A stretch of DNA of 64,000 nucleotides from Eunapius fragilis (lineage: Eukaryota; Porifera; Demospongiae; Spongillida; Spongillidae): positions 6,856,350-6,920,349 of the forward strand of contig OY811972.1 in the NCBI GenBank assembly GCA_963681505.1, written 5' to 3'. Shown in pieces: positions 5,073-34,744 of the stretch. Both the position numbers and the translations under genes were made by a program. Position 1 is the stretch's first letter; each line of letters opens with the position of its first letter. The notes under the pieces are model-generated. The model searched no databases. It saw only the letters and a list, made by a program, of their open reading frames with translations, and was not told the DNA's origin.

Positions 5073-5117
5073 GGGTCATTCCATACTTAATTGAGCCCTA
5101 ATCTCCAACAGAAGTAA

Positions 5118-5816
5118 CAGTACCGGTCATAATAAAAGTCACGTTCCGTTTTAGTTCTACGATCGTAGCACTGTGCAGTCTTTTTAGAACACGAAGATAA
5201 AACGATGATCTTATGTACCTGTTAATAAGTTCCGCGAAGTGCACAACTCCGTTTACACTGGTTTTATAGTAACGCACGCGGTAACAAAACGATGACGCTG
5301 CATAGATCGCTGAAAGGATTGAGCAAAGGAATTCTAACGTAGCATATAAAACTGAACAAGCGCATTCATTCAGAAGATCCGTTTTAATAAATACGTTTAT
5401 GTAATTATGCCTCCGCCCCTACAGTAAAAATCGCTCGCTTCGACCGCTACATGTACTTCTTCTATACGTCTCCTCTTTGAGTTCCCAAAATCCTCCCTCC
5501 GTTTGAAGGATAAGTGGATGATGTCATACAACAGATGAGACCGCTTTTAACTTTAGCCACATTAATTGAACCGATCGCGAGCGCTGTTGCAGAACGTCCA
5601 TCCAAGCGATGTTATGCAACCAATCAAGCGATGCGAACGGTTTGTTAGCATTCCAAAAACGCATCTAAACCGCTAGTGATTAACAACTTTTGTGTTAATC
5701 ATATTAGAAGAATACATGTAGCTACAATGCCAAAACAAAACGAAACCAGAAGCCATATCCTAGTGCTACGATCGTAGCACTAAAACGGAACGTGACTTTT
5801 ATTATGGCCAGTACTG
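5118..5816. mobile_element. Tc1-type MITE (about 700 bp) in the left arm of the DDE transposon
   Basis: TIRs of more than 50 bp: CAGTACCGGTCATAATAAAA... and its complement ...ttttattatggccagtactg, both carrying the palindrome gtgctacgatcgtagcac further in. The opposite (right) arm of the host transposon lacks it, which proves an insertion. The TA duplication is not clean (aa left, ca right). Nothing coding inside. Confidence 0.8.
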
Positions 5817-5936
5817 CATATTATCTACCCCATGAAATATACAAAATCTCTGTACATGTTTATAATCTTAAGTTATTCGGTTTATGAAATATAACGTGGC
5901 CCAATTGGATTGAGGGACCCAACAGTATCTCAAGTA

Positions 5937-14174: not shown

Positions 14175-14452
14175 CTTTTTGCACAGGTACCACTCGCCAA
14201 CCCCCCCCCCCCCCCCCCCCGACAATCCACCAGACCAGCTGGTCCAGACCTTGTTGTTCCCCGACCTCGACTGGCTCTCCCAGGCCTGGACGAAGAAGTT
14301 CATTTCTTCTTAAAGAAGGGCCTCGCAGAGTCAACCCATCGGACATACATGTACGCAGCCAGAATGAAGCGATTCAACCAGTTCTGTAACACCTTTACGT
14401 TAGCGTCCCCTTCCCCTTTATCTGAGAGTACATTATGTTACTTCGCGGTCTA
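14175..14452 (+). pseudogene. Start of the tyrosine recombinase of the outer element, with a poly-C run
   Basis: After LFAQVPLANP there is a C-run at about 14202-14220, then QLVQTLLFPDLDWLSQAW. A frameshifted continuation holds LAESTHRTYMYAARMKRFNQ and FCNTF...SESTLCYFAVY, the SAM-like/core-binding start of a DIRS-type YR. It is cut after the TA in the codon pair for V-Y by Tc1-BEN element A and resumes at 20388 with LAKDNLLSQTIKTYFAAV. Confidence 0.7.
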
Positions 14453-14711
14453 CAGTAGCGGTCAAAATAAAGTTTCCGTAACGTGCAGTTTTACGGAAGC
14501 CGTAAAGTGTGATAATTAATGTGCGGTTCCCGCGGTCGTTAAAATAAACTGATTAAACCACGCCATCACAAAGGCGTCACGACGGTTAAATTTTGTAGTC
14601 CGTTTAAACGGCAAGTAGTCGTAAGTAACGGCGTAAATAAAAAACGGCGATGATAACGCCGTTTTATGTGCACGTGCTCGCTTCCCGACTCGTCGCCTGT
14701 GCTTTTTCAAA

Positions 14712-15778
14712 ATGGTATACTCCCACTACCAAAAGCTGCGTATCCTGTTCTTTTTTTCGAAAGGTTTAAATCCACCTGCCATTTTAAAACGCCTAGAAGA
14801 AGAAGGCATGTACGCAACTAGGCAAGGCATATTGAAGTTTATCAAGAAGTTCAAATCAGATGGCACTATTGGAAGAAAGCCTGGGGGTGGACGTAAGTCG
14901 AAGGTAACGGCGGAAGTAAAAGCCATCGTTGAAGAGCAGATGAAGAAGGATGATGAAACAACTGCGTCGCAACTGCACGCTCTTTTGAATGCTCGGGGTC
15001 ATTACCTATCGTTTAGAACGATACTTCGGTGCAGAAGTGCTTTGGGCTGGACCTTTCGCGGAAGCGCATACTGCCAGATGATACGGGAGCCAAATAAACT
15101 GAAGAGACTAGATTGGGCAAAACTACACCTGCACGAGGCTGAAACAGGATTCAAGGACGTGCTCTGGACGGATGAGTGCACAGTGCAGCTGGAGTCACAT
15201 CGCCGCTTCTGCTGTCGCAAGCGAGGAGAGCCACCCAAAAACAAACCTAGGTACAGTGAAATATCGTATCATGTTGTAGATGTAATTACATTTGCAAATT
15301 TATTTATAGGGCTAAACATCCTACCAAAGTTCATGTCTGGGCAGGTATCAGTATTGAAGGAGCAACAGGAATCTGCATCTTTGATGGGATCATGAAGGCT
15401 CCATTATATGTTGAAATCCTGCAAGATACATTGCTACCATTTCTATCAGATATCCTTCCCCACAGCCATCGTTTTATGGCAGACAATGACCCCAAACACA
15501 CGTCACGGCTGGCTCAACAGTTCATCTCGGACAATAGGATAAACTGGTGGAGAACGCCTGCAGAGTCACCGGACTGCAATCCCATAGAGAATCTGTGGCA
15601 TGAATTAAAGGAGTATATGAGAAGAGAAATCAAGCCGCGAACAAAAGATGAGCTTATTGCTGGTATAATTGCATTTTGGCATACTGTAGATAAAGAGAAG
15701 TGCCAGAAATATATTAGACATCTGAGGAAAGTTATACCTAAGGTCATTGAACTCAATGGTGCTGCAACTGGTTATTGA
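14712..15778 (+). CDS. Tc1-type transposase, two exons, apparently intact
   Basis: Exons 14712-15250 and 15310-15778 (intron gtacag...tttatag, 59 bp, phase 2) give 335 residues. The N-terminus is a paired-like helix-turn-helix (YSHYQKLRILFFFSKGLNPP) with the linker GRKPGGGRKSK. The catalytic DD34E set is visible: WTDECTVQLESH, FMADNDPKHTSR and NPIENLWHELKEY, with 34 residues between the second Asp and the Glu. It would cut the TIRs and insert at TA. The start ATG follows the TIR by ~200 bp. No stop or frameshift once the intron is removed. Length fits the family (about 340). Intron position is shared with element B. Confidence 0.9.
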
Positions 15779-16069
15779 TTAATTTGCATATACATGAACA
15801 CGTATAAATAAGACTGATTTTTTTGGAATGTCCACCCGGCACTGTACCAATCATATGGGAGGGAAAGTTTGTGCATGACATATCTTAGGTGCCTATTATT
15901 TTAAAAAGGAGGCAGTTTGTGGCTTGTTGGAAGAAGGTGCTTTTTTTTTTTTAAACAAACGTGGTTTGTTTCACTGTCTTTGTGCCTAACATAGAACAAA
16001 TATTTACTTGTAGCTGTGCTGATTAGCAAACATTCCACACATCCTTATAGGGGAGGTGTTTGTGCAGTG

Positions 16070-17285
16070 ATCTAATGCCTATCAAAGGGGAGGAGGGGGT
16101 TTGGACGCCCTGATGCCTATCAATGGGGAGGAGGTAGTTTGGGCGTACTGATGCCTATCAAAGGGGAGGAGGTAGTTTGGGCGTACTGATGCCTATCAAA
16201 GGGGAGGAGGTAGTTTGGGCGTACTGATGCCTATCAAAGGGGAGGAGGTAGTTTGGGCGTACTGATGCCTATCAAAGGGGAGGAGGTAGTTTGGGCGTAC
16301 TGATGCCTATCAAAGGGGAGGAGGTAGTTTGGGCGTACTGATGCCTATCAAAGGGGAGGAGGGGGTTTGGGCGTACTGATGCCTATCAAAGGGGAGGAGG
16401 GGGTTTGGGTGTCCTGGTGCCTATCAATGGGGAGGAGGGGGTTTGGGCGTACTGATGCCTATCAAAGGGGAGGAGGTAGTTTGGGCGTACTGATGCCTAT
16501 CAAAGGGGAGGAGGTAGTTTGGGCGTACTGATGCCTATCAAAGGAGAGGAGGGGGTTTGGGCGTACTGATGCCTATCAATGGGGAGGAGGTAGTTTGGGC
16601 GTACTGATGCCTATCAAAGGGGAGGAGGTAGTTTGGGCGTACTGATGCCTATCAAAGGGGAGGAGGGGGTTTGGGCGTACTGATGCCTATCAATGGGGAG
16701 GAGGGGGTTTGGGCGTACTGATGCCTATCAAAGGGGAGGAGGTAGTTTGGGTGTACTGATGCCTATCAAAGGGGAGGAGGTAGTTTGGGTGTACTGATGC
16801 CTATCAAAGGGGAGGAGGTAGTTTGGGCGTACTGATGCCTATCAAAGGGGAGGAGTGGGTTTGGGGCGTCCTGGTGCCTATCAAAGGGGAGGAGGTAGTT
16901 TGGGCGTACTGATGCCTATCAATGGGGAGGAGGGGGTTTGGGTGTACTGATGCCTATCAATGGGGAGGAGGTAGTTTGGGCATACTGATGCCTATCAAAG
17001 GGGAGGAGGTAGTTTGGGCGTACTGATGCCTATCAATGGGGAGGAGGGGGTTTGGGCGTACTGATGCCTATCAAAGGGGAGGAGGTAGTTTGGGCGTACT
17101 GATGCCTATCAAAGGGGCGGAGGGGGTTTGGGTGTCCTGGTGCCTATCAAAGGGGAGGAGGTAGTTTGGGCGTACTGATGCCTATCAAAGGGGAGGAGGG
17201 GGTTTGGGGCGTCCTGGTGCCTATCAAAGGGGAGGAGGTAGTTTGGGCGTACTGATGCCTATCAAAGGGGAGGAGGGGGTTTGGG
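16070..17285. repeat. Minisatellite, 38 bp unit, about 32 copies
   Basis: The unit is gatgcctatcaaaggggagg + aggtagtttgggcgtact. Variants exchange aaagg/aatgg, gtagt/ggggt and cgtact/tgtcctgg. Flanking single degenerate units occur at about 17385-17450. It begins ~290 bp after the transposase stop and ends ~285 bp before the BEN gene's 3' end. Confidence 0.95.
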
Positions 17286-17569
17286 CAACTACTTAGAGGG
17301 ATTGAGAGATTTTTTTAAAAAGGATTTACTAAAGCTGTGCTGATTGGTAGTTATTTGACACATAAGGGAGGTGTTTGTGTGATCTAATGCCAATCAAAGG
17401 GGAGGTGGTATTGGGTGTACTCATGCCTAACTGATGCCAATCAAAGGGGAGATGGGGGGTTGGGGCTTGTCACTAGGTGTATTTAACATGCATGCTAAAT
17501 TCACTAACTGCTACATATACACATTGCAAAAAACTACAGCCAGAATCACTACACCATGAAAACGCGGTC

Positions 17570-20139
17570 TCACTTTGGCCTTAAACGTTTGCAACTTTGT
17601 TGGACAGCTTCCATACACTTTTTCCAGAGATCTTCAAAGCCAACAGTGTTATTCCAATATTGTGGAAGCTGTTGAAACATGATATCCTTTAAATATTGAA
17701 GTTCCCTAACAGGTAGTGCATTCAGAGCACCAGTTCCAAAAGGTGTGCATCGTATCATAATGTCATCTCCAAATATAGCTTCTCTTGCTAACTTTTGGGC
17801 TAAAGTAGGTGCCTTTCCTTCACCTTTAAGCTTAGAATTTTTAATTAGTACTACCTCCACAGAAGATAGGCGCTCTTTCTGTATAGCAGATGAGGGTAGA
17901 GGTTGTCCAGGAGGCACATCACTGCCCTCTGCTGTCCCTTGAGGTGGTTGTACAGAGGAGGACTGAGATGATGCACTACCACCCAGGGCCAGTTGGGACA
18001 GTATGGAAGACATTGGTGACTGAGATGGCATAGAAGTGCCCATTGCTAGTTGAGGTGGAGCAAAAGACATTGGTGACTGAGATGGTACAGAAGTGTAAGA
18101 TGGTATAGAACTGCTCAGTGCTGGTTGAGGTGGAACAGAAGACATTGGTGACTGAGATGGTACAGAAGTGTAAGATGGTATAGAAATGCCCAGTGCTGGT
18201 TGGGGTGGAACAGAAGACATTGGTGACTGAGATGGCATAGAAGTGCCCAGTGCTGGTTGAGATGGAACAAAAGACACTGGTGACTGAGATGGTACAGAAG
18301 TGTGAGATGGCATAGAAGTGCCCAGTGCTGGTTGAGGTGGAACAAAAGACACTGGTGACTGAGGTGATAAAGTAGTGCCCAGTGCCAGCTCGAATGGTGC
18401 AGAAGTGGATACTGGTGATTCAGACAGCGTAGGAGCTTCAGTAATGGATGTTGAATAGTGAGGTGCAGCCAACAGTCGAGGGGCAAATCTGGATGGTGTG
18501 AGAATGTGCCTTGTTGTTTGAACAGATACTTGTTCGAGTGCAGTTAATCTTTTCACTAAGTTGTCAATTAGTTGCTCCACTTTGGTAAGACGACACTGAA
18601 GATCTTGAACAGTTGCTTGCAGCAATATGCGGTCCTGTAAACCTGAAATGTTGTGTTTGCTACAAGGAAGTGATTGTGCAACAAAAGCACCTACCAGGTA
18701 ATGAAATGTCAGAATCAGATGAGTATGATGAGAATGATGAGGATAATTGTTCACCATCTAAATACAAAAATAGTAAAGTAATGTTTATACATGTAAATCA
18801 AGATTTTCTTGCCATACTGCTTACCTCCAGCTGATGTACATGTAACACCATTAGGTTTGGAAACAGTGCCTGTAGCATGTTTGCTAATCGCAGAGCCTTT
18901 TGGGTATAAATGTACATGTACATTATAAAGTATAGAACCCTAAATGTTACATACCTTCTGCACCTGTCACCGCTGCTGTGGATGGTAGATTAGAACTATA
19001 AACTAACATTCATTTTTACTAGAGCAAATTAGTCTTACCTTTTTCATGTAAAGCAATTTGCAGGATTTTTCCCACAGCAGCAGGTTTCCTAGGCTTCTTT
19101 TTGATAGCATCACTACCCTTCTTGCTGCCCTTTCCTTCATTTGCTTTAAATTTCTTTACTCTTTTTGGTGGTGACTGCTCTTCCATCTTCTCTACATCCT
19201 CCTCTTGCACCTTCTCATCATTTGCATCCTTATTCTTTTTCCCTCTATTATCATCCCTCTTTCTTTGCACTGACTGCTCTTCCATCTTCTCTAAATCCTC
19301 CTCTTGCACCTTCTCATCATTTACATCCTTACTCTTTTTCCCTCTATTATCATCCCTCTTTCTTTGCACTGACTGCTCTTCCATCTTCTGTACATCCTCC
19401 TCTTGCACCTTCTCAAAAGGTGTGTAGGTACCATTAATAAAGCCTTCCTCAAGAGCTGCCATCTCATCCTTGGTACCTATATACATGTATGAGTGACAAA
19501 TTTCAACATGCCCGTTTTTTCTAATACAGTCTACCCTCGATATAGTCCGGGCTACGGGAACCCCCAAACTAGCGGACTGTAGGACAAACGGATAGTAGCG
19601 ATGCGAAGTTTAGCTTACGAAGGGTTAGTAGTTGGCAAGAAAAATAGCGGACATTATCGCGGATGGACTGTATCGAAGCGGACACTATCGAGGGTAGACT
19701 GTAGCAATAGAATCAAATGCGGTAGGCTTGTGTAAACTGTGGTTTAACTATCAGATGTTTCCTTGGTTACGCTATTTAGTAACAGCAATGCATCGTTCTT
19801 GTCACCTCGCAGATATACATTTCTATCGTAACATACACTGTACGCTAGGTTAGATGCACGTGCGTGTGCTTGTGCATATATGCGCTTGCTTACCTTTTGC
19901 CAAAATCTTTCCAACATACTCCTTTCTGTGCACCTTCACCTTACAGTTCTCACCGATCTTATCGGACGACAACGTGTCTCCAGATACAACTGACACCGAC
20001 TCTTCATCTGGCCAGTGAACTAAATAGTAATTGTCTATACATGGTGACAGGTGGGCATATTAAAACATCGGTAGACAATCCTTTTTCTCTTACCGGATTG
20101 AATTATCTTCAGCGATCTCCTAAGGCTGGTTGGGTTCAT
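17570..20139 (-). CDS. BEN-domain protein, cargo of Tc1-BEN element A, seven exons
   Basis: Exons (minus): 20094-20139, 19894-20034, 19039-19476, 18955-18975, 18825-18869, 18695-18757, 17570-18642. All junctions are GT-AG, and the phases fit to give 608 residues with no stop. Module order: short basic start (MNPTSLRRSLK); a ~50-residue module (YYLVHWPDEESVSVV ... VKVHRKEYVGKILAKG) repeated in element B; three EEDxEKMEEQSVQRKRDDNR-type charged repeats; a Ser/acidic stretch; a coiled coil (LQCRLTKVEQLIDNLVKRL); Pro/Ser repeats of the PSQSPMSSVPPQPALG kind; and a C-terminal BEN domain with LAREAIFGDDIMIRC, ALPVRELQYLKDIM and CMEAVQQSCKRLR. BEN domains bind DNA or chromatin proteins; the role here is unknown. 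The micro-exon 4 is the least certain. Confidence 0.75.
19527..19701. mobile_element. pogo-like MITE (175 bp) in intron 2 of the BEN gene
   Basis: TIRs CAGTCTACCCTCGATATAGT and the complement of cactatcgagggtagactg, flanked by TA at 19525 and 19702. The CAGT..ACCTCGATA-like start resembles pogo/Tigger ends. No coding sequence. Confidence 0.75.
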
Positions 20140-20387
20140 CTTGATGCGTCAATAATCAAAAAACCGTTCTCGAGCGTAAATATCAACGCCGTTACGATCA
20201 CACGTCAAATGTAACGCCGTTGAAATATACGCCACGTGTGTGCGTGCGCATACAATAACGTAACGGGCGTTCAACGGTTTAAGAACTAATTAAAACGCCG
20301 TTCTAATACCGCGCGGTTTCTATAATTGCACAACGCCGTTTACGTGAAACTGCACGTTACGGAAACTTTATTCTGACCGCTACTGTA

Positions 20388-20658
20388 CCTTGCCAAAGAC
20401 AACTTGTTGTCACAGACAATAAAAACTTACTTCGCTGCGGTACATGACGCCCAGATCGCCCTGGGCATGCCAGAGCCTTGCTGTCACTCCTCCCTCCTGA
20501 GACTCGATAAAATCCAAGCCGGAATTTGTTGAGTCCAATCCCAGAAGAGCACGCCCCTAAGATGAGACTTCCGATCACTCCGATGCTTCTGCGACGCCTG
20601 CGAGATCATTGGGGTAGCGAGGAATCAGGTCACAACGAAGTGCTGTGGGCAGCCGCTT
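20388..20658 (+). pseudogene. Middle of the tyrosine recombinase of the outer element
   Basis: LAKDNLLSQTIKTYFAAVHD + AQIALGMPEP, then in another frame KMRLPITPMLLRRLRDHW and NEVLWAAAC. This is the core-binding end and the start of the catalytic domain. It is cut by Ngaro-2 after the Ala run and continues at 35415 as CFFGFFRLGELLNPGG. Confidence 0.75.
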
Positions 20659-20824
20659 GATACACGTTTCTGTCGGTTGAGCAACACGAATTAGACAGAA
20701 ACTTAGCTCCCTCCCAAATGTGATTGGCTAGACAGCATGTGATTCGGCCACGTGCTGGATGGGGTTTAAATGGGAATGTGCACGTTGGAATTGTCATTCT
20801 AAGTGTTGTGCACGTGCTGCAAAC
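20659..20824 (+). repeat. Ngaro-2 A1 repeat with stem-loop
   Basis: 166 bp nearly identical to 34870-35037. It starts gatacacg and contains the stem TTTCTGTC (20667-20674) pairing with GACAGAAA (20694-20701). It ends at gtgctgcaaactttt/g just before the ORF1 ATG at 20831. Confidence 0.85.
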
Positions 20825-20830
20825 TTTGAG

Positions 20831-20950
20831 ATGGGCAGAGAAGGTGAAGCGCCAGTGAATGACATCAGGCAGAACAGTGAAGAGGCAACAACCTCTACCG
20901 CCGCTGTCAACCTCATGTTAAGCAAACTACTCTCAGAGCAAAGTTCATAG
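20831..20950 (+). pseudogene. Ngaro-2 ORF1, first 39 codons, then internal deletion
   Basis: MGREGEAPVNDIRQNSEEAT followed by a Leu/Ser-rich end, stop at 20950. Position right after A1 mirrors ORF1 of Ngaro-1. Immediately afterwards the sequence gctggtgggtaagatcatat codes the end of RT (KIIFMSFAL), so the rest of gag and the RT core were deleted. Confidence 0.55.
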
Positions 20951-21692
20951 CAAGCCTGGTGGGTAAGATCATATTCATGAGCTTTGCATTACAGGGTTCG
21001 TACAGGTTTGAGATAATGAAATTCCAAACTATTTCAAGACTATTTTAAAGACTGAACTAATTGTTTTCAAAACTTCACATTCAAACATGAGATACAGCAA
21101 CAGTAAAAAAACTCAACATATATTGTAATACTGATTTCTTAATGAAGTACAGCAAACAGTGTTAAGCTAGATTGGTGTAGTTTCCAGGTCTTTCAACTAT
21201 TGATTGGAGTTTGTTATCAAGCGACACAACCTCATTCTGTTTTTCCTTGACCGACCTTCTTACAGCATTGAACTGTGTAATAAACTCCATTGGCTTTGAT
21301 GATCCTTCTGCCTGCTCTGCTAGCGTATCTGCAGATTTGGTCAGAGTTGCAATACCAGACTCGATTCTGGCCTTCTTTGCTTTCAGATCATCAATCTCGT
21401 CAAGGATCGCTTTACATTTAGTACTGCGCTTCTCTGAATCTTGATTCTTTTTCTCCTCATCTAAATGCCTATGATAACGTTGCCTGGCAGATGATGCACT
21501 CAACAGAAGTTCCTTTGACATAGGTACATTTGTCGCACCACCAACACTAATCAAATAGTCTTTAAATGCTCTTTGTGCAACAAGGGTTTGGGCACTCATG
21601 TTTGCAACACTTACTTCCTTGTTAATTGATAATCCCCTCTCCACAGAAGCCTGGCCATGAGAAAGAAGAAGTAGCTTTTTTGATAGGTTCCA

Positions 21693-21976
21693 CAAGTAAA
21701 TAAAAACATTCTCTACGGGAAAGTTGGTGGGATATAGGATTTGATTATGACATTGGTGGTGTAAAAAGCAAGGAAACAAGGTCTTATCAGAAGGGAAAAT
21801 GTCATAGTCCTATATTTAGCACATTTCTAGGGCATGTGTTGTTTGTGTGCTAAATATAGGACTATGACATTTTCCCTTCTGATAAGACCTTGTTTCCTTG
21901 CTTTTTACACCACCAATGTCATAATCAAATCCTATATCCCACCAACTTTCTCGTAGAGAATGTTTTTATTTACTTG
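21693..21976. mobile_element. Foldback MITE (284 bp), family F
   Basis: A near-perfect palindrome: caagtaaataaaaacattct at the left and its complement at the right, arms of about 125 bp around a loop near 21820-21845 (gctaaatataggactat on both sides). A second copy is at 51104-51396. It breaks the hAT transposase gene. Confidence 0.9.
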
Positions 21977-22018
21977 TTTCTTTATTTTTTTTCATACCCA
22001 TTTAATTATACAAGACAT

Positions 22019-22151
22019 TAGTCTCGTACCCAGACCGTCTATGACGTAAGCGATTATCGCTGTAAACACTACATCCATACGTACGGACGTAGTGATTATA
22101 CTGATTACAGCGATAATCACTTACGTCATAGACGGTCTGGGTACGAGACTA
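22019..22151. mobile_element. MITE (133 bp) with 9 bp target duplication, MULE-like
   Basis: TIRs of ~45 bp: TAGTCTCGTACCCAGACCGT and its complement. Direct copies of acaagacat at 22010-22018 and 22152-22160. A 9 bp duplication is typical of Mutator-like elements. No coding capacity. Confidence 0.85.
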
Positions 22152-22194
22152 ACAAGACATAGGAGGCTGATAGTCGATTGTTTATCAAAGTATT

Positions 22195-22535
22195 ATATTA
22201 TATAAAAGCGAGTCCTCCAGCCGATTCTGAAGCTATTGGTGAAATTTTCATCGCTTAGAAATGTTCCTGTCCTGAGTTATGCGTTGCCAAGAAGGAGAAG
22301 ACGACCCGCCCCTTGTTCCAAGACTGGGTACGAGGACGGGCAGTACACTCTTGTTCTCAACAACCACGCGGTTCAGCAACATGAAACAAAAACGAAACTA
22401 CTCATTTTTGACTTCTAGATCGATTGCTAAAACAAGCTACACGATCCGATCGTTGGGAGTGTTGTTACAGACGGGTCGCGTTTTTTTTAATGACATTCAT
22501 AGTCGTGGTCAAATCCTATATGGAAGTTTCTAACG
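22195..22535 (-). repeat. Dispersed repeat family X, copy 1
   Basis: About 340 bp whose complement matches 50596-50944. It ends in a small hairpin ggaagtttc / gaaacttcc at 22522-22543. Contains conserved blocks gtttcgtttttgtttca and gaaccgcgtggttg. It separates parts of the hAT gene. No product recognised. Confidence 0.7.
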
Positions 22536-24819
22536 AAACTTCCGATAATTCAGCTCGCTGCGTGTTTTTCCCCAAAGTACCATAAAAAAGGACATCAAGT
22601 CTATCTGTACCAACTTTGAAAGACATGAAATTCTCATTAGCAGCATTTTCAGTAGCAAATTCATTGTACTGACGAATAATAAGATCACACTGTCCAGCTG
22701 CAACATGGTGCATGTCAACAAGGATTTGCAATGCTCGTGTAAGCTGTTGCACACACTTAGGCTGGTTAGTACACTAAGCTCTAGGGTTTAACCATTCAAG
22801 GTTTCTAACAAGACCATACCTAATTGGAGACTTCTCTAACAACTTATTAACAAGAAATACAAGTACTTTTCTAGTATCTGACTTCACGCTAAAAATATCC
22901 TTGTCAGATATCTTCTTTGTCCCCTTCAGTTCATGCAATACCTTTTCTGACACAAATCCTATGTTGACCTTTGAGGTGTCTTTATGAAGTGATGTATTCG
23001 ATACATCATTCCCTAAAACTTTTATCATCCTAATAGCAGAGAGCTTAGCCTGTTCCATAACATCTTCCTTTATAAATCGATCAAGAAGGCGAACGAGGGT
23101 ATCATGCAGGTCTTTAACAAGAAATGGAACCATTGGAAGATCAGTCTGGTACTTTGTCAGAAAAGGAGTAATCTCTAGAGCTATAGAAAGAAATATATTA
23201 GCCTTTACAATGTAAAGAGGGTCATCACAACACCTTGCTATTACATCAAAAGACTTGATGCGAGGATTTGGTAGTTTTCCTGATTTTACAGCTTTAACAT
23301 AATTTGCTATATGTGGCCAGACTTCTAGAGCTCTTTCCACAACAGGCACATTCTCTACCCATCTATGCGAGCAAAACTTCTTTGGAAAGACTTCACAAGC
23401 TGATGCATTCACATGCATAAAATCTTCTCGTCTTGCCGGTGAATCCTTAAAGAGCCAATACAATGAAGAAAGAGAATGCTCTATTTCCCAACCAGACTGT
23501 GAAAAATCCAACCGGAAAGCATTATGCAAAACATGCAATCCACAGCTCCCAATATTCAGTGGGGCTCTGCCAACTTCAGTTTGAAGGTCAGTATTAAGTA
23601 ATTCATATGTGGCCTAGTTAACATTTGGGCCATCCATAGAAAGCTGCACAATACCTTGTTTTCCAACATCAATACAGCATGACTGGAGTTCTTCAAAAAG
23701 GTGCTCAGCTGTAGCATGACCAAGAAACCTCGAAGTGAAATAATGTGTAGCTACTTTCTCATCTTCCAACATGCGAATGTGGAGGTCTAGTTGTTTCATT
23801 TGCATGTGATTATTCAAGCTTTCATCAAAAAGCAGAACATAACTACCAGCTGATTTAAACTTTGAAGCCAGCAACTGCTGCATATGTGGAGCAATTCCAA
23901 ATGTAGTGAGATACATGTAGGAGCACTTTTTTCCCCACAAGCAAATTTTGATGCAACAGAACTATCAGGAAACATCTTTGTAAATAGTGTGCTAGTATCC
24001 TCTGAACTCTTGAATGAGTAGTGCTTTTCAACAACAGTCAGTGCCCAGTAGATTTCAACAGTCAGTACAGCATTTCCAGTACAGGAAGAGTCCATGGAAG
24101 ATACATGTAAGGGTGCTGATCTACAAAAATAACGCTATTATAAAGCCAAAAACCATTACACAACGTCAAAGTACTACTCTCGCGTATAAGACATATCATT
24201 ATTTAGCGCACATCCTACAACGTCAATCATTCCCGAAACGAATAACGCCCACGTAATAGCATGCGCATAGCTTAGATCATTGGAAGACTTTTCTACTTCA
24301 CTTGGCAGTTCTGGTGCAGCCAAGAAAGAAACAAGGCTTTCTTTGGGCTTAAGACCCATCAGATAAGTGTGCTTCTTGCCCTTCATATGGCTTACAAGAG
24401 CAGCTTCACCATACTAGCGACATCAAAGGATTTGTTACAAATTCTACAGCGCGCTTTGCTCTTGCTCGTTCGATCCGCTGCGCTTGCAATCCAGTTTTTG
24501 TACTCCTCCTTTTGTATCCAACCTATAAAGAATACACACTTACCCATCCAACCGAACGCTTCAAGTTCGTCGTCGATCACTCACAATACACGTGTACGAA
24601 GCACCTCCCACTGAACTCATACGGTTTCATAGTATCGCAATCGTGGTCGCAATATATTGGTATAGCACAGCGCTAGTGCATAGCTTATACGCCAACGTGA
24701 TTTTCCATACTTTTTCATATTTATGTTGCATTTCAAGACCTTTTCCAGGTCTGGAAATCGGTATAGTCATTTTTAAGACTTTTTCATAAATTCCAAACCG
24801 CGTACGAACCCTGGCATTA

Positions 24820-25801
24820 GGTCCAGTTGCCAGATTTATGACACGAGCGTTGTATTCCGTATTGGAGACCAGGAATGCATGGTGTGAATTTCTAGCAGTA
24901 ACAAATGAGGCAAGGGACGAATTGCAATTTTGGGTAGATTGTCTACAGGAGTATAACTCACAGCCTATATGGCACAGTCCATCTGCAGTCAGATGTGTGT
25001 ACTCGGATTCAAGTGATATAGGTTATGGAGGATATACTGTGGAGCATGGTATACATATTGCTCAGGGTAACTGGTTACCTGACGAAGCTAAACAGAGTTC
25101 AAACTGGAGGGAGCTCGTAGCAGTGGGAAGGGTGTTGATGTCAGTGGCTGGAAAATTGCATAAAATGAGAGTGCGTTGGTTTACGGATAACCAAAATGTT
25201 GTTCGCATTCTGCAAGTAGGTAGTTGCAAGCCCCATTTGCAGGTAGAGGCCTTGAAGGTGTTCAAAGCATGTGTGGCCAATAATATCAGGTTGGAGCCAG
25301 AGTGGGTTCCAAGAGAGAAAAATCAGCTTGCAGATTACTGATTATGACGATTGGTATATTGACCAGAAAGTGTACGAATGGGTGGATACTAAGTGGGGCC
25401 CACACACAGTGGATAGATTTGCTACTTGTTATAATGCTCAGGTTGAGTGATTCAATTCCCGATATGCTTGCCCGGGTTCAGAAGCAGTGGATGCTTTTAC
25501 AGTAGACTGGTCAAAAGGAAACAACTGGTGGTGTCCACCACCGATGTTAGTGCCACGAGTACTCAGGCATGCAGAGCGATGTAATGCACAGGGCACACTG
25601 GTTGTGCCTTGGTGGGAGTCAGCCCCGTTTTGGCCTTTGTTGTACACAAGTGCTAACGGATGGGCACCATTTGTGTCGGATTGGCTAGCACTACCATTGT
25701 CAGAACAGCTTATTCAGCAAGGTAGATCTGGTTCAGCCTTGTTTAAAGGGAAGTTCCCTACCACAGAGGTTATTGCTGTGAGAATTGACTTCGAGCATGT
25801 C
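24820..25801 (+). pseudogene. Ngaro-2 RT end, RNase H and tail
   Basis: Open from the GCATTA junction: GPVARFMTRALYSVLETRNA, then WHSPSAVRCVYSDSSDIGYG (RNase H motif with Asp), EAKQSSNWRELVAVGRVL (with Glu), RWFTDNQNVVRIL (with Asp) and EWVPREKNQLADY (last Asp). These are the four acidic positions of an RNase H that removes the RNA strand. A frameshift near 25340 and a stop at 25447 follow; the tail (GPHTVDRFATCYNAQVE, VPWWESAPFWPLL) is typical of DIRS/Ngaro polyproteins. The upstream RT palm is deleted. Confidence 0.8.
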
Positions 25802-25805
25802 TAAA

Positions 25806-26005
25806 TTAGCCTCTGCGGCTATTTTGTGCTTATAGCCTTGGCGGCTGGGCAGGGTGTATGTATTTGCCTCAGCGGCTATGTTGTGCCTATAGCCTTGGAG
25901 GCTGATGGGCAGTGTGTATGTAATAGCCTCAGCGGCTATGTTGTGCCTATAGCCTTGGAGGCTGATGGGCAGTGTGTATGTAATAGCCTCAGCGGCTACG
26001 TTGTG
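25806..26005. repeat. Tandem repeat, 60 bp unit, about 3 copies
   Basis: The unit tagcctcagcggctatgttg + tgcctatagccttggaggct + gatgggcagtgtgtatgtaa is repeated, the first copy diverged. It lies between the Ngaro-2 RT/RNase H stop and the Tc1-BEN B insertion. Confidence 0.9.
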
Positions 26006-26299
26006 CAGCGGCTGTTGTGTTGAACCCATACCTCAGCGGTGGCGTAATTGGTGTTGTAGCCTACAGTATGGGACACGAAAAAGGTTACGTTCCGTATTGT
26101 TAACACGCAATATGTACGATTGTATAGTTCCGTACTACGCTCGTATACACGGAGTTAACACGATCGAGCGCAGGTACGGTTCAATTATCGTGTATGAATC
26201 CGTTTACGTCTGTACGCATCGCGTTTCAATTGTGCGCATCGTATCTACGCACGCAATCACAAGTCCTATCGGTTGCAGTAAAACGCAGCGATCAAGAAT

Positions 26300-27355
26300 A
26301 TGGTTTACTCGTGTTACAAAAACCAGAGAATTGTTCAGCTTTCACAGATGGGGCACAAGGCGCCTAGCATATGTAAACTGCTGGTGCAGGAGAATCTGTC
26401 ATGCACCCGTAAAGGTGTGCATGCTTTTCTCAAGCGATATGATTTATCGCAGACTATCGAAAGGAAGCCAGGATCGGGTGGACCGTCGAAGATTACAAGA
26501 GAAGTGAAAGACAGACATCGTTGAAAACCAAATGCGACTCGACGATGAGACCACAGCCCTTCAGCTCCATAGACTCCTGCAGAGCCTCGGATACAATATT
26601 CATAGGCGTACGATTCTGCGTTGCAGAACTTCACTGGGATGGACATTTAGAGGCAGCGCGTACTGTCAGCTAATTCGCGATGCTAATAAGCAGAAGCGTT
26701 TAGATTGGGCGCAGGATAACATTAACAACTCTTTTGATGATGTAATTTGGACTGACGAGTGTACGGTGCAGTTGGAAAGCCACAGAAGATTCTGCTGCCG
26801 CAAACGTGGAGAGGCACCTAAACCTAAGCCCAGGTATGTAGCTGGTTCAACATGTACATGTACACTGATCATTTCATTGTTTTCAGACCAAAACATCCCA
26901 CAAAAGTGCACGTGTGGGCTGGAATAAGCAAGCGGGGAAGGACTGCAATTTGTGTTTTTGAAGGAATTATGAAGCAGGAGCTGTTTGTGGATATCATGCG
27001 TTCTGCATTGATACCATCCATCAATTCACTTTTCCCTGATGGCCACAGACTGATGATGGACAACGATCCTAAGCACACATCAAGACATGCTGGTGCTTGG
27101 ATGGAAGCTAATGGGATAAATTGGTGGAGGACACCACCCGAGTCACCTGATTTGAATCCCATAGAAAACCTCTGGCATGAACTGAAAGAATACATCCGAC
27201 GAGAAGTCAAGCCAAAGGTGAAACAGGAGCTCATTGATGGTATCCTGGCATTCTGGAGGACTGTAACCAGAGAAAAATGTTGTAAATACATAGGGCATTT
27301 ACGTAAAGTAATTCCCAAAGTTATAGATTTGCAAGGGTGTGCAACAGGCTATTAA
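26300..27355 (+). pseudogene. Tc1-type transposase of element B, one frameshift
   Basis: Exons 26300-26833 and 26887-27355 (intron gtatgt...tttcag, 53 bp). Start MVYSCYKNQRIVQLSQMG, helix-turn-helix, linker ERKPGSGGPSK; catalytic WTDECTVQLESH, MMDNDPKHTSRH and NPIENLWHELKEY (DD34E). A single-base shift near 26515 in exon 1 separates the DNA-binding part from the catalytic part; the second part is otherwise intact. Intron position (after the KPR codons, before KHPTKVHVWAGIS) is the same as in element A. Confidence 0.85.
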
Positions 27356-27474
27356 ATTTTATGATACTTGTCCATCATACAGACACTATAGGTGTTGAAA
27401 TGCATGGAATGTGCTAATGAATAACCCTGTGAGGTCATTCCTACATGTATGCCCACAAGCCTTGTAACCCATAT

Positions 27475-30400
27475 CTGTTAGACCACACCCAATACCAAGC
27501 CTTCGGCTAATCATGTAACCCCATACAGCCTGACTGCTAGACCACACCCACACCAAGTCTTCGGCAAATCATGTAACCCCATACAGGCTGAATGTTAGAC
27601 CACACCCACAGATACCAAGCCTTCGGCAAATCATGTAACCCCATACAGCCTGACTGTTGGACCACACCCACACCAAGTCTTCGGCTAATCATGTAACCCC
27701 ATACAGGCTGATAGTTAGACCACACCCACAGATACCAAGCCTTCGGCTAATCATGTAACCCCATACAGCCTGACTGCTAGACCACACCCACACCAAGTCT
27801 TCGGCTAATCATGTAACCCCATACAGGCTGATAGTTAGACCACACCCACAGATACCAAGCCTTCGGCTAATCATGTAACCCCATACAGCCTGACTGTTAG
27901 ACCACACCCACACCAAGTCTTCGGCTAATCATGTAACCCCATACAGGCTGATAGTTAGACCACACCCACAGATACCAAGCCTTCGGCAAATCATGTAACC
28001 CCATACAGCCTGACTGCTAGACCACACCCACACCAAGTCTTCGGCTAATCATGTAACCCCATACAGGCTGATAGTTAGACCACACCCACAGATACCAAGC
28101 CTTCGGCTAATCATGTAACCCCATACAGCCTGACTGCTAGACCACACCCACACCAAGTCTTCGGCTAATCATGTAACCCCATACAGCCTGACTGCTAGAC
28201 CACACCCACCAAGCCTTCGGCAAATCATGTAACCCCATACAGGCTGAATGTTAGACCACACCCACAGATACCAAGCCTTCGGCAAATCATGTAACCCCAT
28301 ACAGCCTGACTGTTCGACCACACCCACACCAAGTCTTCGGCAAATCATGTAACCCCATACAGGCTGATAGTTAGACCACACCCACAGATACCAAGCCTTC
28401 GGCTAATCATGTAACCCCATACAGCCTGACTGCTAGACCACACCCACACCAAGTCTTCGGCAAATCATGTAACCCCATACAGCCTGACTGCTAGACCACA
28501 CCCACACCAAGTCTTCGGCAAATCATGTAACCCCATACAGGCTGAATGTTAGACCACACCCACAGATACCAAGCCTTCGGCTAATCATGTAACCCCATAC
28601 AGCCTGACTGTTGGACCACACCCACACCAAGTCTTCGGCAAATCATGTAACCCCATACAGGCTGATAGTTAGACCACACCCACAGATACCAAGCCTTCGG
28701 CTAATCATGTAACCCCATACAGCCTGACTGCTAGACCACACCCACACCAAGTCTTCGGCAAATCATGTAACCCCATACAGCCTGACTGCTAGACCACACC
28801 CACACCAAGTCTTCGGCAAATCATGTAACCCCATACAGGCTGAATGTTAGACCACACCCACAGATACCAAGCCTTCGGCAAATCATGTAACCCCATACAG
28901 CCTGACTGTTGGACCACACCCACACCAAGTCTTCGGCTAATCATGTAACCCCATACAGGCTGATAGTTAGACCACACCCACAGATACCAAGCCTTCGGCT
29001 AATCATGTAACCCCATACAGCCTGACTGCTAGACCACACCCACACCAAGTCTTCGGCTAATCATGTAACCCCATACAGGCTGATAGTTAGACCACACCCA
29101 CAGATACCAAGCCTTCGGCTAATCATGTAACCCCATACAGCCTGACTGTTGGACCACACCCACACCAAGTCTTCGGCAAATCATGTAACCCCATACAGGC
29201 TGATAGTTAGACCACACCCACAGATACCAAGCCTTCGGCTAATCATGTAACCCCATACAGCCTGACTGCTAGACCACACCCACACCAAGTCTTCGGCAAA
29301 TCATGTAACCCCATTCAGGCTGAATGTTAGACCACACCCACAGATACCAAGCCTTCGGCAAATCATGTAACCCCATACAGCCTGACTGTTGGACCACACC
29401 CACACCAAGTCTTCGGCTAATCATGTAACCCCATACAGGCTGATAGTTAGACCACACCCACAGATACCAAGCCTTCGGCTAATCATGTAACCCCATACAG
29501 CCTGACTGCTAGACCACACCCACACCAAGTCTTCGGCTAATCATGTAACCCCATACAGGCTGATAGTTAGACCACACCCACAGATACCAAGCCTTCGGCT
29601 AATCATGTAACCCCATACAGCCTGACTGCTAGACCACACCCACACCAAGTCTTCGGCTAATCATGTAACCCCATACAGCCTGACTGCTAGACCACACCCA
29701 CCAAGCCTTCGGCAAATCATGTAACCCCATACAGGCTGAATGTTAGACCACACCCACAGATACCAAGCCTTCGGCTAATCATGTAACCCCATACAGCCTG
29801 ACTGTTGGACCACACCCACACCAAGTCTTCGGCAAATCATGTAACCCCATACAGGCTGATAGTTAGACCACACCCACAGATACCAAGCCTTCGGCTAATC
29901 ATGTAACCCCATACAGCCTGACTGCTAGACCACACCCACACCAAGTCTTCGGCAAATCATGTAACCCCATACAGCCTGACTGCTAGACCACACCCACACC
30001 AAGTCTTCGGCAAATCATGTAACCCCATACAGGCTGAATGTTAGACCACACCCACAGATACCAAGCCTTCGGCTAATCATGTAACCCCATACAGCCTGAC
30101 TGTTGGACCACACCCACACCAAGTCTTCGGCAAATCATGTAACCCCATACAGGCTGATAGTTAGACCACACCCACAGATACCAAGCCTTCGGCTAATCAT
30201 GTAACCCCATACAGCCTGACTGCTAGACCACACCCACACCAAGTCTTCGGCAAATCATGTAACCCCATACAGCCTGACTGCTAGACCACACCCACACCAA
30301 GTCTTCGGCAAATCATGTAACCCCATACAGGCTGAATGTTAGACCACACCCACAGATACCAAGCCTTCGGCAAATCATGTAACCCCATACAGCCTGACTG

Positions 30401-30805
30401 TTGGACCACACCCACACCAAGTCTTCGGCTAATCATGTAACCCCATACAGGCTGATAGTTAGACCACACCCACAGATACCAAGCCTTCGGCTAATCATGT
30501 AACCCCATACAGCCTGACTGCTAGACCACACCCACACCAAGTCTTCGGCTAATCATGTAACCCCATACAGGCTGATAGTTAGACCACACCCACAGATACC
30601 AAGCCTTCGGCTAATCATGTAACCCCATACAGCCTGACTGCTAGACCACACCCACACCAAGTCTTCGGCTAATCATGTAACCCCATACAGCCTGACTGCT
30701 AGACCACACCCACCAAGCCTTCGGCTAATCTCGTAACCCGTACAGCCTGACTGCTAGACCACACCCACAGATACCAAGTCTTCAGCAAATCATGTAACCC
30801 CATAA
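27475..30805. repeat. Minisatellite, about 60 bp unit in a 120 bp dimer, with larger duplicated blocks
   Basis: Two related units alternate: one with accaagccttcggctaatca and cagcctgactg, one with accaagtcttcggctaatca and caggctgatag. Both share catgtaaccccata and gaccacaccca. The 120 bp dimer is regular from 27541. Rare short units (cacccaccaagccttcgg) recur at about 28205, 29700 and 30710, marking copied blocks of ~1.5 and ~1.0 kb. Starts ~120 bp after the transposase stop and ends ~50 bp before the BEN gene end. Confidence 0.95.
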
Positions 30806-30855
30806 GCCTGCAAAGCATGTAAAATCTCAAACTGAATGGATAGACTAAATGCACT

Positions 30856-33411
30856 TTATTGTGGGAGCTTCTTTTTCTTTTCTCTCGCCCTTTTGCAGGC
30901 CTGCCCAATTGCATCCAAACACTCCTTCCAAACTGATTCAAACTCACATGATGCTAAGGTTTGTAGTTGCTGCATCATGATAATCTTCATCCGCTTCATC
31001 TCCTCCACTGGTAGTGCATAATATCCACCCCGCTCACCTGCTACCGTACACTGCATTAACACGTCATCACCAAACATAGCTTCTCTTGCAAGCTTCACTG
31101 CGAGAGTGCTTGCTCTTGCAGGCACACATAGTTTTTTGTTTGCAGCAATGACGCTTAATATGTCCTTTAAATCCTTGCATCTGATTTCTTCTGATGGGAA
31201 GTGCTTAGCTGAACCTTGTGGTGGCTGCAATGTACATGTAGGTGTTTTTGTCAACCCTGGTTGAACTGCTTGCACAGCTGTAGTTGGTACAGATTGAGAA
31301 AGAGGTGTAATTGCTTCATAAACCGGGATCATGGGTAGAAGAGCTGGTGAATGTTCTTGATTAACTGGCATAGTTGATTGTGTAGATAAACAGGTGTAGT
31401 TGAATGATAAACTGGGGTAGTTGATTGTGTAGACAGATGAACAGGTGTAGTTGAATGATAAACTGGGGTAGTTGATTGTGTAGACAGATGAACAGGTGTA
31501 GTTGAATGATGAACTGGGGTAGTTGATTGTGTAGATAGACGAACAGGTGTACATGTAGTTGAATGATGAACTGGGGTAGTTGATTGATAAGCTGGTATGG
31601 TTGTTATTTGAACAGGGATAGGTGATTCAAGATCTGGCATAGCGATTTGGTTAACTGGTGTAGCAGGTCTTCTGCACTGACAGGTGCATGTTTTTAACTG
31701 TTGTTGCATGTCTGCTAGTTGCCTCTCCATCATCCTCATTTGATCCTTCAAGCACATTACTTCAACCTCCAACCGAAATGGATCTGTTTTAGATTCAAAA
31801 ATATGCATTTGGCCATTATTGTAATTAATACTCACCAGAGTCACTGATCCAACTATTATCCGTATCTGAATCTCTCACTTGCATGCAAGGATCGGTTGGC
31901 TTTATGCCAATGTGTGAATCCATTGTCTAAAAATTAAAGTGTTGTTAAATTGTCATAAGAATAATACATGCTGTACCACACCTGATTAGAAGGTACTCTC
32001 ACCAACAAAGGCACCGTAGGGCTTTCTTCCGGCTCTGATGGGATCTAAAAAGTATTAAGTCATGGACAGGATTAATGAGAGACACTACATATAATAATGA
32101 ACCTGAAATCTACTAGTTCTATAATTGCACTACATTCACTGCACATGTACCTGTTTAATACTCTGGTTCACTTCTGATGATGCCAGTGCATGTGTCTTAC
32201 TAGCCTGCAAAAGAGGAAATATCATAACTAAGATGAATACAACTCTAAATACCTCTGTCGTGTCAGTATTCGGTAGGTTTTCTGAGATATCTACACACAG
32301 AATGGTCCCTGCAAAATCAATAAGTCAATATTGGCATGTAAAATATGGTGCATAAGAGATGGTGTCCACAAAAATGTTCACATACCAGGCTCTTTTGCTT
32401 TCTTCTTTGACGATTTTCCACCTATGTGCAGAGGACACACAATCTTAGTTATCACAGCATATGTATGTACTGTAGGTTGTTTACATGTTCACATACCAGG
32501 TGTTTTTGGTTTCTTTGTTGATGTTTTCCCACCTACATGATAGGAATTCATATAACCATAGTTATTTATGCATGATGAGATTCATTTACATGAGATGGAC
32601 ATCGTTGAAATAACAATTTTGATTAGCGGTCAAAAAAAAGAATTACGTATCGTTTTAGTACTACGGTAGCGTATGGTTTCACCTCCGAGGTAATATAACC
32701 CCACCCCTCCACCGTGCGTATCGCCGACGAGTGCCTAAAGTCTAAACCATGCATTTCCTTCATGTCAACGATTAAGGCGCGTGATTTGTACTGTACATGT
32801 GCCGTTTTTTCTAAGCTATAATCTAGCGAACGATTGTCGCTACAAGTTATTTATGCAAGCTGCTAATTATGACATTATCTAATCTGCACTGCATGAAATA
32901 GATACCTTCTGATTCGCTTCGTCTCTTCTTTTTTGGTATTGGCGCGGTTATTTTTGACACTTCTACAACTCCACTGCTCGAGCTCTTGCCACTGCTACCA
33001 TCTTCTGGGAGCCCCAACGGATCCCATTCCCCAGATTCAAACGCAGCCTCACGGTTTAACATCTCTTGTTGGGTTCCTATTACATTTTAACAATTAGAGC
33101 CGATTAATGGACAGTACAGACAACACAAGTATGGCCTACAACTAAATTCAATCCTTTTTACTTACCGATTGCGGCCAATATGCCTTCATACTCGCGCCTT
33201 CCATCCTTCACGAGACATTTACAACCGATGCTTCGATCGGCTGTTACCAAACGCTCAATTTGGACAGCAGAGACCGATCTTTCCGCTGGCCAAAAAACGA
33301 TTGCAAATGCTTCTGGAATCAGTGCAGAGGAAATAAACCATCACAATGTTGTTAGATATGGAGAGACTTACTTTCTTTTTCTGAAGACTTCAGAACGCTT
33401 CTAAGCGACAT
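30856..33411 (-). pseudogene. BEN-domain protein, cargo of Tc1-BEN element B, ten exons, one frameshift
   Basis: Exons (minus): 33372-33411, 33166-33312, 32906-33076, 32497-32532, 32386-32421, 32253-32308, 32151-32204, 32003-32044, 31836-31926, 30856-31783. All junctions are GT-AG and phases agree. Order: MSLRSVLKSSEKE start; the module shared with A (AFAIVFWPAERSVSAV ... RREYEGILAAIG); Lys-rich micro-exons (GGKTSTKKPKTP, GGKSSKKKAKEP); a coiled coil (MRMMERQLADMQQQLKTC); STQSTTPVHHSTTPV repeats; and BEN domain KLAREAMFGDDVLMQC, ALPVEEMKRMKIIM, CLDAIGQACKRAR. In the last exon a 4 bp loss in the final STQSTTP-type repeat (about 31385) puts the BEN part out of frame. Function unknown. Confidence 0.75.
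32533..32905. other. Intron 3 of the element B BEN gene with a Tc1-end-like relic
   Basis: Longest intron of the gene (373 bp). At 32620-32650 the words gattagcggtcaaaaaaaag and ttacgtatcg recall one Tc1 TIR (..GCGGTCAAAATAAAG..), but no partner end was found. Otherwise nothing recognised. Confidence 0.3.
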
Positions 33412-33648
33412 CGCGACAGCTAAAGCGACTCACAAACGAGGTGACGAACGTGGCGCACAAACGATCGCGCAAGCGCAACGGTAGCGTGCAGCCAGGTAGT
33501 GCAAACGATGTAATGCGTGTACGCAATCAACACCCATCAACACACCTTACAGACGCAATTTGTACTTCGTATAACAGGCTGTAGTCAACACCGTGCAACG
33601 ATCGTTTTATGTAAACGGAACGTAACCTTTTTCGTGTCTCCTACTGTA

Positions 33649-34744
33649 TGTCAGGCCCTCGGCAGCAGTGATGTAGCTGCAGTGCAGTGTCAGAGAGGGA
33701 TAATGCAGTTACGCTGTTCTTTTTTGCTGCAGGTGTCTTCAGATCAGGAGCTTGGCCTCTGCTCAGTATATTGGAGGACCCCGAGCTGAGAAGATTGGCC
33801 AAAGCACTACCACCAACGGTGCTGAGGAGCAAGGCGGACAGCACCACAACGAAGTACCTCGGTGCATATCAGCGTTGGAAGACCTGGGCGGATGCAAGAC
33901 AAGGAGTGCCGAGCTTCCCAGTACAGGAGCTCCACCTGGTGCTGTACATGCAGCACCTCAGTGAGTCCACAGAATCCAAGGCTGCAGTAGAGGAGGCAGT
34001 GCATGAGCTCTCCTGGTTGCATGGGTTAGCGGGGCTCCAGCCATTGGGTGGGTCACCCTTAGTTAAGACTATCTTAGAAGGTTTGAGGCGCATTTTGGCA
34101 AAGCCTAAGGTTCGGAAGGAACCGGTTACAGCTGAGATGTTGAGGGCCATGGTGGAGGCTGCTGGAGTAGCTCCATCCCTGACGGAGGTCAGGTTGTTGG
34201 ATGTGTGTCTTGTAGCTATTGCAGGGTTTATGCGGTGTGATGAGCTGATAAGGTTCAAGTGTGAGGACACATCACATTCAATGCTGAGAGCATGGTAATT
34301 AGAATACTGTCCAGTAAGACGAACCAGGACCGGTAAGGTTCATCATTGGTTATAGCTCGTATGGGGGAGCAAACATGCCCTGTCGTTATGATGGAGAAGT
34401 ATTTCCGTATGGGGGAGCTAGAAAACACCCCTAAGGAATGTGTGTTTCGGGGAATATCAGCGACCAAAAACGGAGAACAGCTAAGAAAAACAGGAGGTCT
34501 TAGTTATTCCAGGTTGAGGGAATTACTGTTGAGTAAAATTTCGCGGTTGGGTTATGACCCTAAGCTTTTTGGGATGCATAGCCTTCAGGCAGGTGGGGCC
34601 ACAGTGGCTGCCAATGCAGGTGTACCTCACAGACTGTTCACGCGACACGGTCGCTGGAAATCTGAGTCAGCCAAAGATGGTTACATCAAAGATTCAGTTG
34701 AAAAACGACTAAAAGTGTCCAAACAGCTACATGTAGGCATATAG
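33649..34744 (+). pseudogene. Ngaro-2 tyrosine recombinase
   Basis: Core-binding part in 33687-34298 (ELRRLAKALPPTVLRSKADS, TTKYLGAYQRWKTWADARQG, VRLLDVCLVAIAGFMRCDEL with the first catalytic Arg in FMRCDEL); then a frameshifted stretch; catalytic part in 34346-34744 (FGMHSLQAGGATVAANAGV, HGRWKSESAKDGYIKDS with the nucleophile Tyr). The usual HxxR of this family reads H-S-L-Q here, so the second catalytic Arg is lost. It would integrate the circular DNA copy. Dead by frameshift and by this change. Confidence 0.8.

Follow-up and report, generated by a model that had tools for sequence, protein, structure and literature searches.

Tc1 elements are usually short and carry one gene. A stretch of 64,000 nucleotides from the sponge Eunapius fragilis (assembly GCA_963681505.1, contig OY811972.1, positions 6,856,350 to 6,920,349; hereafter the window) contains two Tc1-type elements, E1 and E2, that each hold a second gene, the last exon of which encodes a BEN domain. 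This locus raises the question of whether the BEN gene is a passenger or a resident of these transposons, and what its protein might do there. The best explanation is an old Tc1/mariner lineage that keeps two genes. The reading favoured here, in which the Tudor-BEN protein of this lineage would protect or control the CpG-rich element ends, is given a probability of about one in two.

Structure and classification of the elements

E1 and E2 (Table 1) were found where the original prediction, made from the sequence alone, had placed them (14453-20385 and 26064-33646), with exact terminal inverted repeats (TIRs) flanked by TA. The outer TIR columns match between the two ends at 33/34 positions in E1 and 32/34 in E2. 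The rest of the predicted plan also holds: both elements have a two-exon transposase on the plus strand, a minisatellite (38 bp unit in E1; Tandem Repeats Finder (TRF) periods 120 and 298 in E2), and a convergent multi-exon gene with a BEN last exon, for which BEN structures come first in the model comparison. The transposases have the catalytic spacing DD34E, with 34 residues from the second D to the E as counted on the sequence, and their DDE_3 scores (60.3 and 72.1 bits) are above the Pfam cut-off of 28.6. The scores of the N-terminal helix-turn-helix (HTH) region are under the cut-offs (HTH_32 25.2 against 33.7 bits; HTH_Tnp_Tc3_2 20.6/23.3 against 31.5 bits).

The elements resemble the Tc1 family (IS630-Tc1-mariner superfamily) in DD34E and DDE_3, in the TA target duplication and in TIRs beginning CAGT. 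The duplication and TIRs that this family demands are present, with exceptions in two of the families described below, H (TG at the right end) and I2 (weak ends). E1 and E2 are unlike the Tc1 family in their length (5.9 and 7.6 kb), the two genes, the transposase intron, the convergent Tudor-BEN gene, and the intergenic minisatellite.

As judged from its reading frames, E1 looks intact, with a two-exon transposase and a convergent BEN gene. The exons of the BEN gene, which runs from 20139 to 17570, splice together in frame, and additional small in-frame exons are possible at 18643-19038. Exon 2 of the E1 transposase has five genome copies at 99-100% identity. A single open frame runs through the E1 site once the flanks are rejoined at one TA, which fits a clean insertion. 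The sequence around E1 (about 14172-14450 and 20388-20690) is an open frame of another mobile element, recombinase-like by eye, and a similar frame was seen at 33672-34744. E2 shares the plan of E1, with broken frames in exon 1 of the transposase and in the last exon of the BEN gene.

Genome-wide pairing of transposase and BEN gene

The lineage was followed in the one source genome (219 Mb, 24 contigs). Searches with E1 transposase exon 2 and the E1 BEN exon gave at least 111 and at least 75 matches, respectively; of these, 111 rows for the transposase and 74 of 75 for BEN were clustered, which yielded 90 transposase and 66 BEN clusters among the matches listed. At 51 of these 90 transposase clusters a BEN cluster follows downstream, on the opposite strand and no more than 9 kb away; at two it is on the same strand, and at 37 there is none; 0.12 convergent pairs were expected by chance. 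The 30 best transposase loci show this convergent arrangement within 9 kb in 26 cases, and the 41 transposase clusters that are at least 450 bp long show it in 30. Conversely, 51 of the 66 listed BEN clusters have a transposase partner. Thus other copies do contain the BEN gene, and it lies mainly within the elements; the original prediction had named the opposite of each as its refutation.

Four of the 30 best loci have no BEN match. L013 and L016 are without a recognised left end, L032 has a stop and no left end, and the fourth (C9:2383188) has a left end followed by a long tandem array; with such defective ends or array, the absence of BEN is not established at these loci. Outside the 30 best loci, a BEN-gene N-terminal module was found near C2:4406093. 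Among 82 DDE_3 matches in the genome, 60 are at places of this lineage and 22 elsewhere. A plain Tc1 control without BEN was sought in the latter; however, seven of the 22 are one element with its own convergent frame of 400 residues and no BEN match, and it was set aside as an unclean control. This multi-copy element (e.g., C3:14212705 and C20:2773320), whose convergent frame has no Pfam family, was observed at L077 (C3:14211500-14214700) and L078 (C20:2771800-2774900), and two copies of it are 99.96% identical over 2516 bp. No contaminating relatives were found in IMG/VR (full-length protein and BEN-domain alignments) or in prokaryote genomes.

Ten families (A to H, I1 and I2) were distinguished, and in one or two copies of each the left end beside the transposase and the region past the BEN exon were read. 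An end pair encloses both genes in all ten families. The TIR match is clear in nine, at 24-26 of the 26 outermost columns; the family C ends were missed in the first copy and found in the C4 copy, and the right end of the H copy has TG instead of TA. The left end TACAGTA is present at 25/30 best transposase loci. A search with the E1 left end gave 23 family-A matches, ten of which are both ends of five full copies; in all five, transposase exon 2 and the BEN exon are free of stops. In eight families the stops are separated by a minisatellite whose unit is particular to the family (A 38, B 28, F 61, H 36 and I2 62 bp; longer periods in E and C; 120/298 in I1); TRF reported none between the stops of D or of the degraded L047 copy.

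Shared history and selection

The phylogenies of transposase and BEN, whose comparison had been proposed with the original prediction, agree in outline. Both trees recover A+B+D, C+F+I2 and E+G+H+I1, and the distances between the ten families are correlated (Mantel r = 0.755, p = 5e-5). Agreement is poorer within the groups, where some nodes conflict or have little support; examples are E/G/H, with 20-42% in the BEN tree, and the branching order of A+B+D. In six family pairs, the proportion of synonymous differences (pS) of BEN is saturated at 0.75-0.84 and that of nonsynonymous differences (pN) is 0.18-0.28, which indicates that BEN is under purifying selection between families. The transposase has the same saturated synonymous pattern across these pairs. 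Within families the BEN ratio is 0.41-0.87 in five comparisons, of copies too similar for a firm ratio.

Public sequences were also included. In a transposase tree with 120 of 1944 public relatives, the ten families fall into one clade with at least 24 public proteins (support 0.86). Public proteins also sit between members of the three clades in both trees (24/120 inside for the transposase). By these trees the three clades are not exclusive to the source genome, and they look older than the radiation of the source species itself. The transposase and the BEN gene seem to share their evolutionary history. The recurring pairing, shared clades, correlated distances, and purifying selection argue that BEN is a resident gene of the lineage and not one-off cargo. 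The vertically kept two-gene Tc1 lineage that had been proposed is thus supported by the pairing, the paired ends and the three common clades; its label of the gene as cargo is not.

Several BEN loci lie outside the main lineage. L002 (C11:7578955) is a BEN gene with a similar N-terminal module and no transposase match nearby in the searches made, and might be either a host gene or a domesticated copy; a protein search with it found one short relative, P0158, which does not settle its origin. A second Tc1-type transposase lineage, degraded and at 46-50% identity, was observed at locus J (L075/L003/L076, C1:13447747-13449597) and at L079 (C2:7115366-7116802); both are intronless where the main lineage has its intron, and both have a convergent BEN exon close by. 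At locus J (C1:13447747), the transposase is 46% identical and the BEN domain is host-type, above the Pfam cut-off. Locus J might be a deeper branch of the lineage, but its BEN sits with that of C11:7578955 on a very long branch, which leaves this placement unproven.

Exon plan and predicted folds of the BEN protein

The protein is arranged, in order, as a Tudor-like N-terminal module, a lysine-rich part, a coiled-coil-like part (DPLLLEME), a part rich in proline, serine and threonine (P/S/T), and the BEN domain. The coiled-coil-like part is a helix in the model of P0003. That the diverged elements share a plan and an N-terminal module had been claimed for E1 and E2, and it extends further: the module exon (WPDEESVSVV ... 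GKIAAIG) was read in nine families, and family C gave a weak tblastn match by its right end (22-43% identity). Ahead of this exon, 8/9 families have a start exon resembling MSLRTALK, which was not found in H. An exon beginning like TK.EM..LE follows it in 8/9 families and is doubtful in F; its acceptor is always two bases ahead of the motif, whereas the second-exon acceptor is less fixed. The public gene model P0003 from another sponge, Ephydatia muelleri, joins the same exons, with the N-terminal module and BEN in the same order. P0004-P0007 group with P0003, and the relative labelled Em0025g21a is taken to be from E. muelleri too. The unnamed public protein P0001 is contained letter for letter in the family-H protein.

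Pfam BEN (PF10523) has no match to the E1 and E2 domains; by family, E (31.9) and B (25.1) score over the cut-off, H and G below it, and D, F and C not at all. In the E1 domain model (predicted local distance difference test (pLDDT) 95.5), BEN structures rank first, the nearest being BEND3-BEN4 and BANP, at 11-14% identity in the aligned rows. By this model the domain of the last exon has a BEN fold, for which DNA binding is predicted. The N-terminal module is modelled to fold like a hybrid Tudor domain, with putative binding of methylated histones. BEND5 is presumably the comparison for the N-terminal module. PDB sequence searches with the alignments A1 and A3 gave no meaningful match. The cellular proteins BEND3 and BANP share the BEN fold; the difference is that the gene studied here sits inside a transposon.

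CpG-rich ends and proposed function

The first 200 bp inside the element ends have a median CpG observed/expected ratio of 1.92, versus 0.52 in the 200 bp outside, and the inside value is higher at 20/20 ends. The next four inward bins have medians of 1.18, 1.07, 0.85 and 0.41, with values as high as 1.68 in some late bins of individual families. In 270 bp tiles of the window (E1 and E2 included) the median is 0.53 and the 95th percentile is 1.48, which 18/20 ends exceed. Away from their ends, the interiors of E1 and E2 are CpG-poor (0.17-0.70); together with the TpG excess of the window (1.25), this suits a methylated genome. A non-autonomous relative at 2436-3228 also has CpG-rich ends (1.78 and 1.74), and genome searches with the E1 exons found no transposase or BEN match in it, which suggests that the feature is more than a promoter. 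Subterminal clusters of 7-mers exceed shuffles in four of the ten families (A, C, H and I2). A second relative, at 5116-5817, retains CpG-rich ends and likewise has no transposase or BEN match.

Published work indicates that BANP and BEND3 bind unmethylated CpG motifs and that BANP requires oligomerisation (in the portion available of PMC11472053), and Bend3 mutation is stated to increase DNA methylation in mouse cells (in the portion available of PMC10602864). The CpG-rich ends and the BEN and Tudor-like folds point to an end-binding, chromatin-linked protein that would protect or regulate the ends, and from this we infer that the BEN protein works for the element. The original prediction had suggested evasion of silencing, control of the transposase or choice of target as possible benefits, on which the Tudor-like fold and the CpG-rich ends now bear. 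The coiled-coil-like region might hold the protein as oligomers, the BEN domains of which could bind CpG-containing sites in about 200 bp at both ends; the Tudor-like module would contact chromatin. The ends, with both gene starts and presumably the transposase sites, would then stay unmethylated, open, and regulated. Such a role, in self-protection or expression control, would be comparable to that of other element-encoded anti-silencing proteins. A narrower version is a tentative proposal, held at well under even odds: the Tudor-BEN protein would recognise its CpG-dense ends and keep them unmethylated and open as self-encoded anti-silencing, protein and ends would co-evolve clade by clade, and the elements might be a source of animal BEN genes.

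A number of observations weigh against protection or control of the ends by a resident BEN protein. A convergent BEN within 9 kb was not found for 39/90 transposase clusters, many of them fragments, nor for 11 of the 41 that are at least 450 bp long. The I2 ends, both of which begin TACAGTATAGG, match weakly (15/26), and 13 of the 23 family-A end matches were not assigned to two-ended copies (fragments, solo ends or short derivatives). The correlation falls to r = 0.536 (p = 1.5e-4) when two degraded families are added, and BEN pN is higher than transposase pN in 4/6 family pairs. Moreover, module exchange happens, as the mosaic copy L021 (C18:3306105-3307519; C18:3307058) indicates: its transposase is F-type (97%), and its BEN is 83% identical, with a synonymous divergence (dS) of 1.29 from F. 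The model of the Tudor fold comes solely from the E. muelleri relative. Two of the 20 ends are under the 95th percentile, and the window has further CpG-rich tiles not linked to these elements. No significant subterminal 7-mer cluster was found in B, D, E, F, G or I1, and the cluster in I2 consists of a run of CG. The CpG-rich ends could also serve the transposase or host factors.

The strongest rival is a transposition cofactor: the BEN protein would bind the ends and contribute to the synaptic complex or to the choice of target, its Tudor-like module tethering it to marked chromatin. This is rather unlikely in itself, although end joining or target choice ranks a close second to protection or control. 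It draws on the same CpG-rich ends and folds, and a part in transposition itself would fit the CpG-rich ends of a derivative without transposase or BEN matches. Elements of other superfamilies do encode second proteins, such as the Harbinger Myb-like protein and MuDR MURB; on the other hand, Tc1 transposases generally act alone.

Self-restraint, by which the BEN protein would repress the transposase promoter and limit copy number, is less probable again. Both genes of E1 and E2 start within about 300 bp of similar ends, so that one type of site could reach both, and repressor activity is reported for a Drosophila BEN protein (in the portion available of PMC4574769). Restraint genes, however, should be easily lost under copy-number selection, yet BEN was kept in ten families. 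It is very improbable that a host BEN gene was captured once and carried unused; the gene at C11:7578955, with the same kind of N-terminal module and no transposase match near it, would fit such an origin, whereas purifying selection across saturated synonymous divergence, the joint divergence of the two genes, and the stop-free BEN exons of the five family-A copies strongly disfavour it. Chance neighbours or an assembly artefact are refuted by the 51 convergent pairs, the ten families with paired ends on both sides, and the relative from another sponge with the same order of N-terminal module and BEN.

Relation to known systems

The original prediction had known of no description of such an element, and no title or opening of an abstract returned from the full-text literature described a BEN gene in a Tc1 element (subscription papers, Repbase entries and preprints were outside the scope). 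The ciliate Tec and TBE elements are also of Tc1/mariner type with extra genes; they have three open reading frames (ORFs), including a zinc finger protein in TBE and a site-specific recombinase in Tec, and the TBE ORFs are under purifying selection (in the portion available of PMC7325037). They differ from the sponge elements in their ciliate hosts and in the Tec TIRs of about 700 bp, and the same portion of PMC7325037 names no BEN or Tudor-like protein. E1 does not match the Tec/TBE plan, as it has two genes and a Pfam scan of its main frames found no recombinase or zinc finger domain.

Plant Vandal elements, fungal TET/JBP elements and SET-bearing elements encode proteins thought to act on chromatin marks (in the portion available of PMC12730594). 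The likeness to these elements is a chromatin-acting protein; they belong to other superfamilies and have other types of protein, and mariner is unmentioned in the main text as far as available (PMC12730594). A bracovirus genome also carries a BEN domain at the end of a last exon; it differs in residing on wasp virus circles and in having an N-terminal PHA02737, and the available portion of the source reports no transposase lineage (PMC4574769).

Multi-gene Tc1/mariner elements in ciliates and chromatin accessory genes in other superfamilies are already known; the Tudor-BEN gene in a Tc1 lineage appears to be new. Tc1/mariner is the textbook one-protein transposon; a second, chromatin-type protein suggests that even such elements can depend on, or profit from, host chromatin management, and that transposons may make their own chromatin helpers. 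The elements might offer a compact system for silencing escape and for the reading of CpG by BEN at transposon ends. They also raise the question of whether some cellular BEN genes derived from, or gave rise to, transposon genes.

Features of the window

The coordinates of the elements, their parts and their non-autonomous relatives are collected in Table 1.

Table 1. Parts of E1 and E2 and related features, in window coordinates
Feature	Position	Strand	Details
E1 element	14453-20385		5.9 kb; TIRs with TA at both sides
E1 TA target site (14451-14452) and left TIR	14451..14498	+	93.8% match to inverted right end, 48 bases
E1 right TIR and TA target site (20386-20387)	20340..20387	-
E1 CpG-rich left end	14453..14720		holds presumed transposase promoter; CpG observed/expected 2.10
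E1 CpG-rich right end	20118..20385		holds presumed BEN-gene promoter; CpG observed/expected 2.18
E1 transposase exon 1	14712..15250	+	HTH region and first D of DDE
E1 transposase exon 2	15310..15778	+	second D and E, DD34E; DDE_3 60.3 bits
E1 minisatellite	16075..17286		38 bp unit; separates convergent stops
E1 BEN gene last exon	17570..18642	-	coiled-coil-like start (by eye), P/S/T-rich repeats, BEN domain
E1 BEN domain	17573..17926	-	model pLDDT 95.5; first eleven rows of a structural second look are BEN domains
E1 BEN gene exon 3	19039..19476	-	end of N-terminal module, lysine/glutamate-rich repeats
E1 BEN gene exon 2	19894..20019	-	Tudor-like N-terminal module; fold transferred from E. muelleri relative
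E1 BEN gene exon 1	20094..20139	-	start MNPTSLRRSLK
E2 element	26064-33646		7.6 kb; TA and TIRs
E2 TA and left TIR	26062..26095	+
E2 right TIR and TA	33615..33648	-
E2 transposase exon 1	26300..26833	+	broken frame
E2 transposase exon 2	26887..27355	+	DDE_3 72.1 bits
E2 minisatellite	27475..30810		between convergent stops; TRF periods 120 and 298
E2 BEN gene last exon, C-terminal frame	30856..31626	-	BEN domain 30859-31212
E2 BEN gene, coiled-coil-like and repeat part	31329..31874	-	frame differs from that of the BEN domain (frame break)
E2 BEN gene exon 2	33164..33310	-	Tudor-like N-terminal module
Family-H type end fragment nested in E2	32624..32679		between BEN-gene exons
Non-autonomous relative, family-B type ends	2436..3228		791 bp, one TA counted out; ends identical in 34/34 columns
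Non-autonomous relative, family-E type ends, mutated tips	5116..5817		96% match to the family-E left end over 5117-5172; at 5816 a family-E end in inverted orientation

Large tandem arrays were also observed outside E1 and E2, at 54863-58660 (154 bp unit, 24.6 copies) and at 8420-10040 (56 bp unit).

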